64,000 nt of DNA from Aurantimonas coralicida DSM 14790 (GTDB lineage: Bacteria; Pseudomonadota; Alphaproteobacteria; Rhizobiales; Rhizobiaceae), in assembly GCF_000421645.1 (NCBI RefSeq), contig NZ_ATXK01000003.1, positions 310,001 through 374,000 of the forward strand. Direction: 5' to 3'. Positions 44,579 through 51,226 of the stretch are shown here, piece after piece; positions within the stretch are counted from its first letter, which is position 1, and each line of letters starts with the position of its first letter. Both the position numbers and the translations under genes were made by a program. A model generated the notes under the pieces. It did no database searches and had not been told where the DNA came from. It was given only the letters and a program-made list of their open reading frames with translations.

Positions 44579-44623
44579 ATGGACACGATGATCTCTGCAA
44601 AGAACTGGTGGTGGGCTCGCTGA
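44579..44623 (+). CDS. trpL: trp leader peptide
   Basis: 14 residues, MDTMISAKNWWWAR, with three consecutive TGG codons followed by Ala-Arg-stop. The WWWAR ending is that of the rhizobial trpL leader I know from Sinorhizobium meliloti. It precedes trpE(G) with a clear terminator between. Ribosome stalling at the Trp codons when tryptophan is scarce should favour the antiterminator. Confidence 0.9.
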   Translation: MDTMISAKNWWWAR

Positions 44624-44660: not shown

Positions 44661-44691
44661 AGGCCGCCTCGGATCATCCGGCGGCCTTTTT
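44661..44691 (+). terminator. trp attenuator terminator
   Basis: Stem AGGCCGCC/GGCGGCCT around an 11-base loop, ending in T5 (44687-44691). Lies 37 bases after the trpL stop and 66 before trpE(G). Confidence 0.92.
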
Positions 44692-44757
44692 GCTATGTCG
44701 CCGGGGGTCCGGGCACGAGACCCGCAACGAGCTTGTCGCAAGACCCGGAGAAGATTC

Positions 44758-46947
44758 ATGGTGACCGAACAGACCGAAGACGGACGGGAACGGTATGTGA
44801 CCGCCGGAGGCATCGTCATCACCCGCAGCCGGCAGGCCGTGGCGTATGAGGGCGCGATCGAGCCCTATTTCGACTGGCTCGACACCCGCCGCGGGGCCGT
44901 CCTGTTCTCCAACTACGAATATCCCGGCCGCTACACGCGCCAGGACGTCGCCTTCGTCGATCCGCCGCTGGTCATCTCGTCGGACAGGCGCGACATGCGC
45001 ATCGAGGCGCTGAACCCGCGCGGCCGTGTGCTGCTCGGCTTCATCGACGCGGCGCTGGCCGGCAATGACGACATCGCGAGCCGCACGCGTAGCGACGACA
45101 TCATCGACCTGACCATCGTCGAGCCGACCGCGGCGGTGACCGAGGAAGAGCGTTCGCGCATGCCGAGCGTCTTTTCCGTGCTGCGGACCATCGTGTCGCT
45201 GTTCCGCTCCGAGGAGGGGCGCGAACTCGGCCTCTACGGCGCCTTCGGCTACGATCTCGCCTATCAGTTCGAGCCGGTGCCGGAAGTGCTGGAGCGCGAT
45301 GCCGAGCGCCGCGACCTGGTGCTGTACCTGCCCGACGAGCTGCTCGAGGTCGATCACTATTCGGCCTCGGCATTCCGGACCCGCTACGACTTCGCCATGG
45401 ACGGCGCCTCGACGGAAGGTCTGGAAGGCGGCGGGCCGGATGCGCCCTTCGCGCCCTCGGATCGGATCCCGCCGCGCGGCGACCACAAGCCTGGCGAATA
45501 TGCCGACCTCGTGCGCTCCGCCAAGGAGAAGTTCATGCGCGGCGATCTCTTCGAGGTCGTGCCCGGGCAGGTCTTCTACGAGCGCGCCGAACACCGGCCA
45601 TCGGAAATCTCGCGCCGGCTTAAGGCGGTGAACCCGTCGCCTTACTCGTTCTTCGTCAATCTCGGGTCAAACGAGTTCCTGATCGGCGCGTCGCCGGAGA
45701 TGTTCGTGCGGGTCAACGGTCGCCGGGTCGAGACCTGCCCGATCTCCGGCACGATCAAGCGCGGCGACGACGCCATCGCCGATTCCGAGCAGATCCTGAA
45801 GCTTTTGAACTCCAAGAAGGACGAGTCGGAGCTGACCATGTGTTCCGACGTCGACCGCAACGACAAGAGCCGGGTCTGCGATCCGGGCTCGGTGCGGGTG
45901 ATCGGCCGGCGCCAGATCGAGATGTATTCGCGCCTGATCCATACGGTCGATCACATCGAAGGTCGGCTGCGCGACGGCATGGACGCCTTCGACGCCTTCC
46001 TCTCCCATGCCTGGGCGGTGACCGTGACCGGTGCACCCAAGCTGTGGGCCATGCGCTTCATCGAGAACAACGAGAAGAGCCCGCGCACCTGGTATGGCGG
46101 CGCCGTCGGCATGGTGCATTTCAACGGCGACATGAACACCGGCCTGACCCTGCGCACGATCCGTCTGAAGGACGGCATCGCGGAAGTGCGGGCCGGCGCG
46201 ACGCTGCTCTACGATTCGAACCCCGAGGACGAAGAGGCCGAGACCGAACTGAAGGCCTCGGCGCTGATCGGCGCCATCCGCGAGGCGGGTGCGCCCGATC
46301 CGGCCGCCGCCAAGCGCGATTCCGCCAAGGTGGGGGAGGGGCTGCGCATCCTCCTCGTCGATCACGAGGATTCCTTCGTCCATACGCTGGCGAACTATTT
46401 CCGCCAGACCGGCGCCGAGGTCTCGACGGTCCGCACGCCGGTGCCGGCCGAGATCTTCGAGCGGATCGCACCGGATCTGGTGGTACTGTCGCCGGGACCG
46501 GGCAATCCGTCCGACTTCGATTGCAAGGGCACCATTGCCCGGGCGCGCGAGCACGGCGCGGCGATCTTCGGCGTCTGCCTCGGTCTCCAGGCCCTGGCCG
46601 AAGCCTATGGCGGCACACTGCGGACGCTGCACATGCCGGTGCACGGCAAGCCGTCGCGCATCCGCATTTCCGATCCTGGCATCATCTTCGCCGGCCTGCC
46701 GGCAGAGGTCACCGTCGGGCGCTACCACTCGATCTTCGCCGATCCCGTCCGTCTGCCCAAGGACTTCAACGTGACCGCCGAGACGGAGGACGGCATCGTC
46801 ATGGCCTTCGAGCACCGGACCGAACCGGTCGCGGCCGTGCAGTTTCATCCGGAGAGCATCATGAGCCTGGGCGGCGATGCCGGCATGCGGATGATCGAGA
46901 ACATCGTCGCGGCACTTCCGCGCCGGGCCCGCGAACAGGCGGCCTGA
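44758..46947 (+). CDS. trpE: Anthranilate synthase, fused TrpE-TrpG
   Basis: 729 residues from the ATG at 44758 (GGAGAAG upstream). Component I (about 1-515) carries '[27 protein letters not shown]', '[10 protein letters not shown]' and '[17 protein letters not shown]'. Component II (about 540-729) is a class I glutamine amidotransferase with nucleophile Cys in [15 protein letters not shown] and the His-Glu pair in [12 protein letters not shown]. The fusion, called trpE(G), is typical of rhizobia and a few other alphaproteobacteria. First committed step to tryptophan from chorismate and glutamine. Controlled by the attenuator directly upstream. Confidence 0.97.
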
Positions 46948-48032: not shown

Positions 48033-49130
48033 ATGGGGGTCGACATCGGCGCGCCGCGCGGCAGGGCCAATCTCGCCGGCCTGAACGGCGTGCAGGCGTT
48101 TCTCATCGCCATCTCCTGGCGCGAGAGGCCGGTGCTTCGCTGGGTCTTCGCCATCGTGGCGATCGGGCTCGCCTTCTGGGTCCGCTACGGGCTGGACGAG
48201 CAATTGCCGGCCGGCTTCCCGTATCTGTCGTTCTTCCCGGCCGTCATCATCACGACCTTCCTCGCCGGCACGGCGCCGGGAGCGCTGGTCGGTCTCCTTG
48301 GCGGCCTGTCGGCCTGGTACTTCTTCATTCCGCCCTTCGATTCCTTCCTGCTCACCGGCGGTTCGCTGCTGGCGCTGGTCTTCTACGTCTTCATCGTGAC
48401 GGTCGACATCGTGCTGATCCACTGGATGCACGTCGCGCTCGACCGGCTGACCGTCGAGAAGGAGGCGACCGCCCGCTACGCAAACGAGCGCGACCTCCTG
48501 TTCCGCGAGCTCCAGCACCGGGTCTCCAACAATCTCGCCGTGGTGTCGGCGCTCTTGAACACCCAGGCGCGCGTGTCCTCCTCCGCCGAGGCGACAGCCG
48601 CCCTGCAGCAGGCCTCCGCCCGCATCGGCCTCGTGTCGAAGATCCAGCGCCAGCTCCACGATCCGAGCCGCCAGAGCCTCGACATGGCGCCCTATCTGGC
48701 GCAGCTCGGGCCGGACCTCCTGGCGGCATCGGGGGTGACCAACGTCACCTATCTGACCGATGTCGCGCCCACCGAGGTGGATGCCGAGACGGCCGTGCCG
48801 CTGGCGCTGATCGTGACCGAACTGATCTCCAACGCGATCGAGCATGGCTGCGCCGACGGCCGGCCGGGCACCATCCGGGTCTCGCTTCGCCGCGAGGACA
48901 TGGCGGGCACTGCGGGCGAGGGCTGGACCCAGCGGCTGCAGGTCGCCGACGACGGGCCCGGCTGGCCGGACGGCTTTTCCATTGCCGCGTCCCGCAATCT
49001 CGGCATGCGCATCGTCGCCTCTCTGACCCAGCAGATCGGCGGACGCTTCGAGACGTCGAACGACGGCGGCGCGGTGGCGACGCTCGTCTTCGAGGCGCGG
49101 CCGGCCTTCGCGCAAGCGCCGGCGGACTGA
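48033..49130 (+). CDS. Membrane sensor histidine kinase, DUF4118 plus HisKA_2
   Basis: 365 residues from the ATG at 48033. An N-terminal DUF4118-like membrane module (about 35-137) with 'SFFPAVIITTFLAGTAPGALVGLLGGLSAWYFFIPP' is typical of the KdpD-type sensor region. The kinase core has the HisKA_2 H-box 'RELQHRVSNNLAVVSALL' (H162), N-box 'LALIVTELISNAIEHG' and G-box 'VADDGPGWPDGF'. No receiver domain and no response regulator next door, so the partner is encoded elsewhere. HisKA_2 and HWE kinases can phosphorylate PhyR-type regulators, but this link is speculative here. A GC-rich inverted repeat lies at about 47947-47976. Confidence 0.87.
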   Translation: MGVDIGAPRGRANLAGLNGVQAFLIAISWRERPVLRWVFAIVAIGLAFWVRYGLDEQLPAGFPYLSFFPAVIITTFLAGTAPGALVGLLGGLSAWYFFIPPFDSFLLTGGSLLALVFYVFIVTVDIVLIHWMHVALDRLTVEKEATARYANERDLLFRELQHRVSNNLAVVSALLNTQARVSSSAEATAALQQASARIGLVSKIQRQLHDPSRQSLDMAPYLAQLGPDLLAASGVTNVTYLTDVAPTEVDAETAVPLALIVTELISNAIEHGCADGRPGTIRVSLRREDMAGTAGEGWTQRLQVADDGPGWPDGFSIAASRNLGMRIVASLTQQIGGRFETSNDGGAVATLVFEARPAFAQAPAD

Positions 49131-49159
49131 GCGGGCGCCCGCGACTGTTGCATTTTCGG

Positions 49160-49187
49160 CTTGCCATCGACGGATTTGCGGCTACTC
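49160..49187 (+). promoter_or_regulatory. Putative leu leader promoter
   Basis: CTTGCC (49160-49165), 16 bases, CTACTC (49182-49187). The leader ATG follows after 8 bases, so the transcript would begin at or near the ATG, mirroring the trp leader promoter 4.6 kb upstream. Confidence 0.55.
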
Positions 49188-49195
49188 TTCGCCGC

Positions 49196-49315
49196 ATGAA
49201 CGCGACGCCATCCACTTTCGGCATGATCGCGGCCCAGAGCCGGGCCGGCGATGCCGCGCGTCCGCTCTCGCTTCTACGCCTTCTCCTTCTTAGCTGCGGC
49301 CGTCGGACCCGTTGA
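49196..49315 (+). CDS. leu leader peptide
   Basis: 39 residues from the ATG at 49196 (an internal ATG at 49223 would give 30). Near the C-terminus it reads PLSLLRLLLLSCGRRTR, that is, seven Leu in nine codons (CTC, CTT, CTA, CTT, CTC, CTT, CTT), then stop at 49313-49315. A Leu-codon cluster directly before leuA is the hallmark of attenuation by leucyl-tRNA availability. No Shine-Dalgarno sequence, consistent with a leaderless start. Confidence 0.82.
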   Translation: MNATPSTFGMIAAQSRAGDAARPLSLLRLLLLSCGRRTR

Positions 49316-49383
49316 CCTGAAGGGGGCGTCCGGCGGTCGAGCCGGCACTGTGGTCCGACCCGGCCCGCGCGCTCAGCCCCTCT
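49302..49383 (+). promoter_or_regulatory. leuA attenuator structures
   Basis: GTCGGACC (49302-49309, within the last leader codons) is perfectly complementary to GGTCCGAC (49352-49359). Competing helices are CCGGC/GCCGG (49330-49345) and AGGGG near 49321 with CCCCT at 49377-49381. This mutually exclusive set fits antiterminator and terminator alternatives. I do not see a canonical T-run, so the block could act on translation or through Rho. The rest of the 347-base gap shows no gene. Confidence 0.55.
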
Positions 49384-49477
49384 CGCTTTACAAGACGGTT
49401 CCAATTGCCGATGACCGGCCAGATGCGCGCGAAGCCGCCGCAGCCGTCATCCGCCCAGCGATCAAGGTGCGAAGACC

Positions 49478-51226
49478 ATGTCCGTTACACCCGCCACCCG
49501 TTCGGCCGCAGACGTCCGGCAGGCGCCGCCCGAAACGGCCGAGCGCCGCGGCACGATGCCGTTGGCCTCCCGCAAGTACCAGCCCTATGGCCAGGTCGAT
49601 CTGCCTGACCGGACATGGCCGTCCAAGACCATCACCGAGCCGCCGATCTGGTGCTCGGTGGACCTGCGCGACGGCAACCAGGCACTGGTCGATCCGATGG
49701 GACAGGACCGCAAGGCCCGGTTCTTCGCGCTCCTGAAGGCGATGAACTTCAAGGAGATCGAGATCGGTTTCCCGTCCGCCTCGCAGACCGATTTCGACTT
49801 CGTGCGCTGGTGCATCGAGGAGGGCGAGACACCTGACGACGTGTCGCTGCAGGTGCTGGTGCAGTGCCGGCCTGAGCTGATCTCGCGCACCTTCGAGTCG
49901 CTGGAGGGGTCGCACCGGCCGATCGTGCATTTCTACAATTCCACCAGCGAATTGCAGCGCCGCGTCGTGTTCCAGAAGGATCGCGCCGGCATTCGCGAGA
50001 TCGCTACTGACGCCGCCAAGATGGTCGTCGACATGGCGGCCAAAGCCGGCGGCGGCTACCGCTTCCAGTATTCGCCGGAAAGCTTCACCGGGACCGAGCT
50101 CGATTTCGCCGTCGAGATCTGCAACGCGGTCGCCGAGATCGTCCAGCCGACGCCGGACAACAAACTGATCCTCAACCTGCCGGCGACGGTCGAGATGTCG
50201 ACGCCGAACATCCATGCCGACCAGATGGAATGGATGTGCCGCAATCTCGACAATCGTGACAGCCTGATTGTTTCGCTGCATCCCCACAACGACCGCGGCA
50301 CCGCGGTCGCGGCGACGGAGCTGGGCCTGATGGCCGGGGCGGACCGGGTCGAGGGCACGCTGTTCGGCAATGGCGAGCGCACCGGCAATGTCGATCTCGT
50401 CACCCTGGCGCTGAACATGTTCACGCAAGGGGTGGATCCGGGTCTCGACGTCTCCGACATCAACCACATCAAGGAAATCTTCGAGTACTGCAACCAGATG
50501 ACGATCCACGAGCGTCATCCCTATGTGGGCGAACTGGTCTACACGGCCTTCTCCGGGTCGCATCAGGACGCGATCAACAAGGGCATGAAGGCCCGCAAGG
50601 TCGCCAACAAGGAATTGTGGGAAGTCCCGTATCTGCCGATCGATCCGAAGGATGTCGGCCGGTCCTACGAGGCGATCATCCGCATCAACTCGCAGTCGGG
50701 CAAGGGCGGCATCGCCTATGTGCTGCAGGCCGATTACGGCCTCAACCTGCCGCGCAACCTGCAGGTGGAGTTCCGCGAGGATATCCAGCACATCACCGAC
50801 GAGGAAGGCCGCGAGCTGCCGGTCAAGCGCATCTACGAGCGCTTCATCGAGCGTTATGTCGAGCAGCCCGACGGCCGCATCCGCTTCGTCGAACACACCA
50901 CCCGGCCGAGCGCGAACGTGAAGGGCGAGCGGATCGTCGAGGCGACCATCCTCGACAATGGCGTGGAGACCACGATCGAGGGGATCGGAACCGGGCCGAT
51001 CGACGGGTTCGTCAACGCCCTCTGCCGCCATCTGGGGCTGGAGTTCTCGGTGTTCGACTATTCGGAACACTCGCTGGGAGCTGGCTCCGATGCGGGCGCC
51101 ATCTGCTACATGGAAGTGCAGCACGAGGGCGGACGGCTGTTCGGCGTCGGCATGAACAAGAACATCGTCACGGCTTCGCTCGAAGCGCTGGTCGCCGCGG
51201 CGAACCGCCTCTTGGCGTCGCGCTGA
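49478..51226 (+). CDS. leuA: 2-isopropylmalate synthase
   Basis: 582 residues from the ATG at 49478; an ATG at 49556 is an alternative. Catalytic HMGL-like domain: 'WCSVDLRDGNQALVDPM' (metal Asp), 'EIGFPSASQTDFDFVRW', 'SLHPHNDRGTAVAATELGLMAGADRVEGTLFGNGERTGNVDLV' (HxH metal ligands and GNGERTGN). C-terminal regulatory domain (about 440-582) binds leucine. This is the longer LeuA type (about 560-600 residues). First committed step of leucine synthesis; under the control of the Leu-rich leader. Confidence 0.97.
   Translation: MSVTPATRSAADVRQAPPETAERRGTMPLASRKYQPYGQVDLPDRTWPSKTITEPPIWCSVDLRDGNQALVDPMGQDRKARFFALLKAMNFKEIEIGFPSASQTDFDFVRWCIEEGETPDDVSLQVLVQCRPELISRTFESLEGSHRPIVHFYNSTSELQRRVVFQKDRAGIREIATDAAKMVVDMAAKAGGGYRFQYSPESFTGTELDFAVEICNAVAEIVQPTPDNKLILNLPATVEMSTPNIHADQMEWMCRNLDNRDSLIVSLHPHNDRGTAVAATELGLMAGADRVEGTLFGNGERTGNVDLVTLALNMFTQGVDPGLDVSDINHIKEIFEYCNQMTIHERHPYVGELVYTAFSGSHQDAINKGMKARKVANKELWEVPYLPIDPKDVGRSYEAIIRINSQSGKGGIAYVLQADYGLNLPRNLQVEFREDIQHITDEEGRELPVKRIYERFIERYVEQPDGRIRFVEHTTRPSANVKGERIVEATILDNGVETTIEGIGTGPIDGFVNALCRHLGLEFSVFDYSEHSLGAGSDAGAICYMEVQHEGGRLFGVGMNKNIVTASLEALVAAANRLLASR

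Follow-up and report, generated by a model that had tools for sequence, protein, structure and literature searches.

A probable leaderless leucine attenuator upstream of leuA in Aurantimonas coralicida and related bacteria

The leuA gene of Aurantimonas coralicida DSM 14790 is preceded by a short, leucine-rich ORF that we take, with fair confidence, to be a cis-acting leucine attenuator, leaderless and operated by the translating ribosome. The leader very probably enables ribosomes stalled on it to signal a shortage of leucine, although the stalling logic is carried over from the class of ribosome-mediated attenuators. The analysis covered a stretch of 64,000 nucleotides of this genome, corresponding to G000:C3:310001-374000 and referred to in the following as the window, together with leuA leaders from other genomes. 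Comparison of these leaders strongly supports the input stage, that is, a leaderless-looking start followed by Leu control codons, and likewise a 12-bp helix that spans the leader stop codon. The step by which leuA expression would be lowered appears to differ from that of the trp leader in the same genome. The features are collected in Table 1.

Table 1. Features of the leuA leader region and of the leaders used for comparison (window positions).
Feature	Position	Strand	Remarks
-35-like element CTTGCC	49160..49165	+	TTG at this spacing from the ATG, 69/69 leaders
-10-like element TACTCT	49183..49188	+	one base 3' of the earlier CTACTC (49182-49187)
Predicted transcription start, A of leader ATG	49196	+	-10 spacing 7 nt; 64/69 leaders have C at -1
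Leader ORF MNATPSTFGMIAAQSRAGDAARPLSLLRLLLLSCGRRTR, including stop	49196..49315	+	39 sense codons; ATG 49196, stop 49313-49315; read from sequence
Leu control codons CTC TCG CTT CTA CGC CTT CTC CTT CTT	49265..49291	+	LSLLRLLLL, seven Leu in nine codons
Last Leu codon CUU plus A	49289..49292	+	last Leu codon before arm 1; 68/69 leaders
Arm 1, antiterminator-like helix	49297..49308	+	in last leader codons; 12 bp with arm 2
Arm 2, antiterminator-like helix	49328..49339	+	3' of stop codon; 12 bp with arm 1
Lower helix of competing hairpin, 5' arm	49321..49328	+	in the window 6 bp, 49322-49327
Lower helix, 3' arm	49375..49382	+	covariation, 59/69 rows
Upper hairpin CCGGC(GGTCGA)GCCGG	49330..49345	+	alternative partner for arm 2; sequence and fold
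G-poor tail CUUUACA after lower helix	49386..49392	+	conserved; not a U-tract
Possible third hairpin, 5' of leuA ribosome-binding site	49410..49451	+	49410-49415 with 49446-49451; tentative
leuA Shine-Dalgarno-like AAGGT	49464..49468	+	sequence; alike in many relatives
leuA, 2-isopropylmalate synthase, long type	49478..51226	+	582 aa; downstream gene of leader
trpL MDTMISAKNWWWAR	44579..44623	+	comparison leader, same genome
trp intrinsic terminator with T5	44662..44691	+	comparison, same genome
ilvI leader MTKINILVVGRRTREAV, 17-codon ORF	L112, G000:C1, upstream of ilvI	-	by eye, one genome

The leader ORF and its promoter

The original prediction had described a 39-codon ORF with seven Leu in nine codons ahead of leuA, and this ORF is present. 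The downstream gene is presumably leuA, a name taken from the original prediction and from general knowledge rather than from a family search; its closest named match is leuA of Aurantimonas manganoxydans (99%). For comparison, 79 leuA loci were gathered, 56 of them named and 23 from further genomes. Searching them with a pattern for their conserved core left 69 distinct leaders, one of which is that of the window (L057), besides seven duplicates and three unmatched loci. In the loci that the pattern missed, reading by eye shows Leu-rich leaders for L042 and L079 and a degenerate one for L050, from Azospirillum. Because the 69 sequences are related, counts over them do not represent independent events. 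The distance from the leader stop to the leuA start was 114–269 nt in the 58 rows with an assigned leuA start.

The Leu codons are conserved in the relatives: all 69 leaders carry three to six Leu in their last 14 codons, and the other two frames over the same 42 nt carry 1.4 Leu on average. Where several frames ended in a stop close to the core, the one richest in Leu was taken; in 64 of the 69 leaders a single frame qualified, and the five rejected frames carry one or two Leu. By eye, the N-terminal part of the ORF is variable and its Leu-rich C-terminal part conserved. The 373 Leu codons found in the last 16 codons of the 69 leaders comprise 209 CTT, 105 CTC, 35 CTG, 18 CTA, 5 TTG and 1 TTA. 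CTT thus accounts for 56% of the control Leu codons (209/373) against 17/104 elsewhere in the same ORFs, and for 5.7% of those in leuA itself, where CTG makes up 54.2% (about 1600 nt per gene, n = 2576). CUU and CUC would be decoded by a single tRNA-Leu (GAG). A stop codon follows 24 nt downstream of the last CTT in 63 of the 69 leaders. In PMC1183508, the choice of control codons is argued to serve isoacceptor sensitivity, and the near-invariant CUU-A described here would offer a clean system for isoacceptor-specific sensing.

The A after the last CUU is near-invariant (68/69) although the codon that it opens varies. A programmed +1 frameshift at CUUA toward leuA was considered and rejected, since stops in the +1 frame are dispersed from 25 to more than 1900 nt downstream.

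The promoter spacing given in the original prediction (CTTGCC, 16 bases, CTACTC, 8 bases, ATG) was confirmed in the window sequence, with the one amendment that the alignment favours TACTCT as the register of the -10-like element. The geometry is also that of trpL, as had been claimed, with 36 bases from the start of the -35-like element to the ATG in both leaders (trpL ATG at 44579). When the 69 leaders were aligned on their ATG codons, CTTGC appeared near -36, TAnnnT near -10 and C at -1. A TTG stands at the -35 distance from every one of the 69 leader ATGs, compared with 65 of 1169 control ATGs taken from within 600 nt in the same loci; for CTTG the figures are 62/69 and 17/1169. Rows with a single candidate ATG all had the TTG (35/35). 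The composition of the -10 column (T at -13, 0.55; A at -12, 0.62; T at -8, 0.54) is partly selected, because in rows with several ATGs the leader ATG was picked by its -10 score.

With promoter spacing that fits in 69 of 69 cases, the leu leader looks leaderless, its start being placed at the AUG by that spacing. A start at the AUG leaves no space for a Shine-Dalgarno sequence, and an AUG start without one is a known pattern for leaderless genes. The trpL gene of S. meliloti is described as leaderless (PMC7298713, PMC10117765), and 171 mapped transcription starts coincide with the first base of a start codon (PMC3616915). High-GC DNA yields many chance ORFs, and the leader might in principle be one of these, rich in Leu by accident and part of a normal 5' UTR transcribed from a promoter farther upstream. 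We regard this as extremely unlikely, as it is contradicted by the joint conservation of the Leu codons, the stop distance, the promoter spacing and the covarying helices described below.

Covarying helices around the leader stop codon

Compensatory pairing in the leuA leaders was found in two places, the arm 1:arm 2 helix and the lower helix of a putative competing hairpin. For the former, alignment A1 comprised all 69 rows (64 distinct), and 99.2% of cells were paired. Double changes occurred in 6 of the 12 pairs, a number reached by 3 of 500 shuffles, and the covariation score was attained by none of 500. The result was less extreme when further pair types were counted (34/500). The antiterminator segment folds at -31.4 kcal/mol (z -2.75). 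The helix is thus strongly supported by comparison.

A different pairing had originally been put forward as the switch, namely eight bases of the last leader codons, GTCGGACC (49302-49309), with GGTCCGAC (49352-49359). The pair is indeed perfect in the window, with 42 rather than 43 bases between its halves, but it is not conserved. GTCGGACC occurs in 22 of the 69 rows and its partner only in the window and a close relative (L001), so that the pair is kept in 2/69 rows, and it was rejected as the switch. The conserved 12-bp helix neighbours this pair and flanks the stop codon.

The lower helix was assessed on alignment A2, which holds 59 of the 69 rows (58 distinct). Here 93.7% of cells were paired, with double changes in 5 of 8 pairs (reached by 7/500 shuffles), although this count is somewhat flattering because L018, L046, L069 and L074, among the ten rows outside A2, have short helices or helices elsewhere and were left out. 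No shuffle of 500 attained the covariation score; counting further pair types gave a less extreme result (11/500). The upper helix did not exceed composition chance in the window and reached ≤0.05 in only 16/69 leaders, being clear in some groups; it was therefore rejected as an independently supported element. The downstream hairpin segment, at -32.3 kcal/mol (z -0.32), is no more stable than its shuffles. The same holds for the 93-nt stretch with both structures (z 0.36), in which the fold prefers the antiterminator, and for the whole 284-nt leader (z 0.61).

Taken with the input stage, these helices suggest the following course of events. Transcription would start with the first base of the leader start codon, as the promoter spacing indicates, and the ribosome, with no Shine-Dalgarno sequence to guide it, would therefore load directly on the 5' end of the emerging RNA. 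If Leu-tRNA reading CUU and CUC were scarce, the ribosome would stall in the Leu run and leave arm 1 free to form the 12-bp hairpin with arm 2, a pairing backed by covariation whose timing is presumed. If leucine were plentiful, the ribosome at the stop codon would mask arm 1. Arm 2 would then enter the downstream hairpin, of which the lower helix rests on covariation and the upper part is conjectural, and leuA expression would be lowered.

The output step

How the hairpin would lower leuA expression is the weak step of this scheme. The likeliest output is premature termination of transcription at a hairpin whose tail is degenerate and CUUUACA-like, possibly with the aid of Rho or a Nus factor; we rank this above the Rho-dependent and post-transcriptional alternatives considered below.

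A consensus terminator scan of 49000-49600 found none. Canonical terminator-like sites occurred in 8 of the 69 leu leaders and in 67 of 690 mononucleotide shuffles, which is about chance. The same script and settings found a terminator in 13 of 14 trp leaders (a count that has no shuffle control), and the one missed (L111) still has a T-run. After the lower helix, a run of at least four T within 14 nt was present in only 1 of 59 tails. What is conserved there is a different motif: YYAC[AC] occurs in 44 of the 59 tails, against a mean of 11.7 and a maximum of 21 in 500 shuffles, and TTTACA or TTCACA in 25 of the 59. The statement that the leu leader is built like the trp one consequently stands for the promoter and start and falls for the output (8/69 against 13/14). 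An intrinsic attenuator of the classical sort, no different from that of trp and using the 8-bp pair as its antiterminator, agrees with the perfect pairing in the window, but it is very unlikely given the retention of the pair in two rows only, the lack of a canonical terminator in the window and the chance-level frequency of such sites in the relatives.

The same Leu sensor might instead work through Rho, in that a ribosome leaving the RNA at the stop codon of the leader would uncover a C-rich, G-poor stretch before leuA, access to which would be decided by the competing hairpins. The missing U-tract agrees with this. So does the finding that 51 of 58 leader-to-leuA stretches contain a 78-nt segment with C/G > 1.5, compared with 3 of 58 when the reverse complement is taken; such segments are rarer in other 5' regions (7/23 in the window, leuA among the seven, and 8/34 in the loci). 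On the other hand, the C-rich stretch takes in the 3' arm of the hairpin, which is itself C-rich; the 80 nt that follow the hairpin contain, by themselves, 31.6% C and 28.8% G on average, and the rows compared are related. We consider this output possible but doubtful.

Alternatively, the hairpins might set the decay of the mRNA or the translation of leuA without terminating transcription. The conserved non-U tail would suit such a post-transcriptional output, as would a further hairpin that may lie just 5' of the leuA ribosome-binding site. Against it, pairing of the leuA start with arm 2 averaged -12.96 kcal/mol compared with -13.59 for shuffled sequences, and with the region of the 3' arm -13.52 compared with -12.48 (sd ≈4, 58 rows in both cases). 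A pairing between these arms and the start of leuA was accordingly rejected, there being no gain over shuffles in the 58 rows, and the distance of at least 114 nt between leader stop and leuA start also speaks against this output, which we judge unlikely.

By eye, the paired positions of the third hairpin co-change in Aurantimonadaceae; RNAalifold gave no consensus pairs for it, and single-sequence helices were mostly at chance (≤0.05 in 5 of 48).

Termination at the hairpin remains our preferred output. As a broader and more tentative proposal, to which we give somewhat less than even weight, the leader would exemplify a widespread leaderless Leu attenuator of long-type leuA. It would sense one tRNA-Leu isoacceptor through CUU-A and would turn leuA off with no intrinsic terminator, the step being Rho-dependent, assisted by a factor or one of RNA decay, unlike the trp and ilv leaders with U-tracts in the same genome. 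With this leader it becomes testable, in harmless laboratory alphaproteobacteria, whether transcription can be ended by a hairpin that covaries but has no U-tract.

Related leaders and range among genomes

A further leader of this type was seen upstream of ilvI in the same genome. In MTKINILVVGRRTREAV, read by eye, the ATG lies eight bases after a -10-like element, and a hairpin is followed by T6; the gene behind it is the best match to acetolactate synthase (TIGR00118) in the genome. It is the third leaderless-looking attenuator there and fits a shared start design. The leuA leader lacks the T-run found after the ilvI hairpin. It also differs from trpL, which has Trp codons, and from the 14 trp leaders compared, all of which have a run of at least five T after the hairpin. 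Together, the trp, leu and ilv leaders of one genome suggest a single leaderless start design with differing output designs, and they make testable the question of how leaderless ribosome loading matches the pace of RNA polymerase.

Attenuators of ilvIH and ilvB in alpha-proteobacteria, reportedly described by Vitreschak in 2004, are branched-chain leaders and so share both the class of control and the group of bacteria with the leu leader. The leu attenuator of E. coli and Salmonella has a Shine-Dalgarno start and a canonical terminator. The enterobacterial Leu leader is included among the Rfam 15 families, and the Rfam 15 covariance models gave no match to the window at the gathering score; at E ≤ 10 the only hit was M23, which scored 14.7 bits where the gathering score is 41.2. 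According to PMC1183508, the E. coli and Salmonella attenuator resembles the present leader in having Leu control codons of biased choice before leuA, but these are CUA, compared with mostly CUU and CUC here. The trpL/rnTrpL leader of S. meliloti, as described in PMC7298713 and PMC10117765, is similar to the leader predicted here in having its ORF AUG at the 5' end, in controlling a biosynthetic gene and in belonging to Hyphomicrobiales. We found no alphaproteobacterial leuA leader of such kind in the portions of the literature searched (including PMC1273637, PMC10117765, PMC7298713, PMC3616915, PMC3738593, PMC4842269 and PMC1183508).

The range of the leader was surveyed with R1, a covariance model of the leader core, scoring at most 24 candidates per genome in the order and at most 16 in the class. 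R1 matched at least 7 of 199 genomes of the order and at least 4 of 289 of the class, the genome of the window being in both; absences mean little, because few candidates per genome were scored. One genome of another family (G203) combines a 74% match to LeuA with an R1-matched leader, and a second genome of that family (G033), with a LeuA match of only 25%, has no R1 match among the candidates scored. Model and reading placed Leu leaders upstream of leuA in G506 and G422 (59–61% LeuA), which likewise lie outside the family. In the few cases tested, the leader thus appears to go with the long type of LeuA and not with Hyphomicrobiales as a whole. The lineage-wide design that had been proposed is thus too broad for Hyphomicrobiales, whereas the notion of a common start design agrees with the leaderless-looking ilvI leader.

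An R1 match in G228 (L088) was rejected as a leader, since it lies on contig C700 and leuA on C503. As to gene order, trpE (44695-46944 in the window) and leuA are ≈2.5–3.3 kb apart on one strand in G000–G007, G000 being the genome of the window, and in G014. In G010 the distance is ≈10 kb; in G008 the two genes have opposite strands, and in G009, G011 and G013 they fall on separate contigs. Finally, tandem short ORFs lie ≈340 nt 5' of leuA in G422 (L093), with six and five Leu, and in G228 (L095), with three and four; in both, hairpins follow the ORFs by eye, and a double attenuator is possible.
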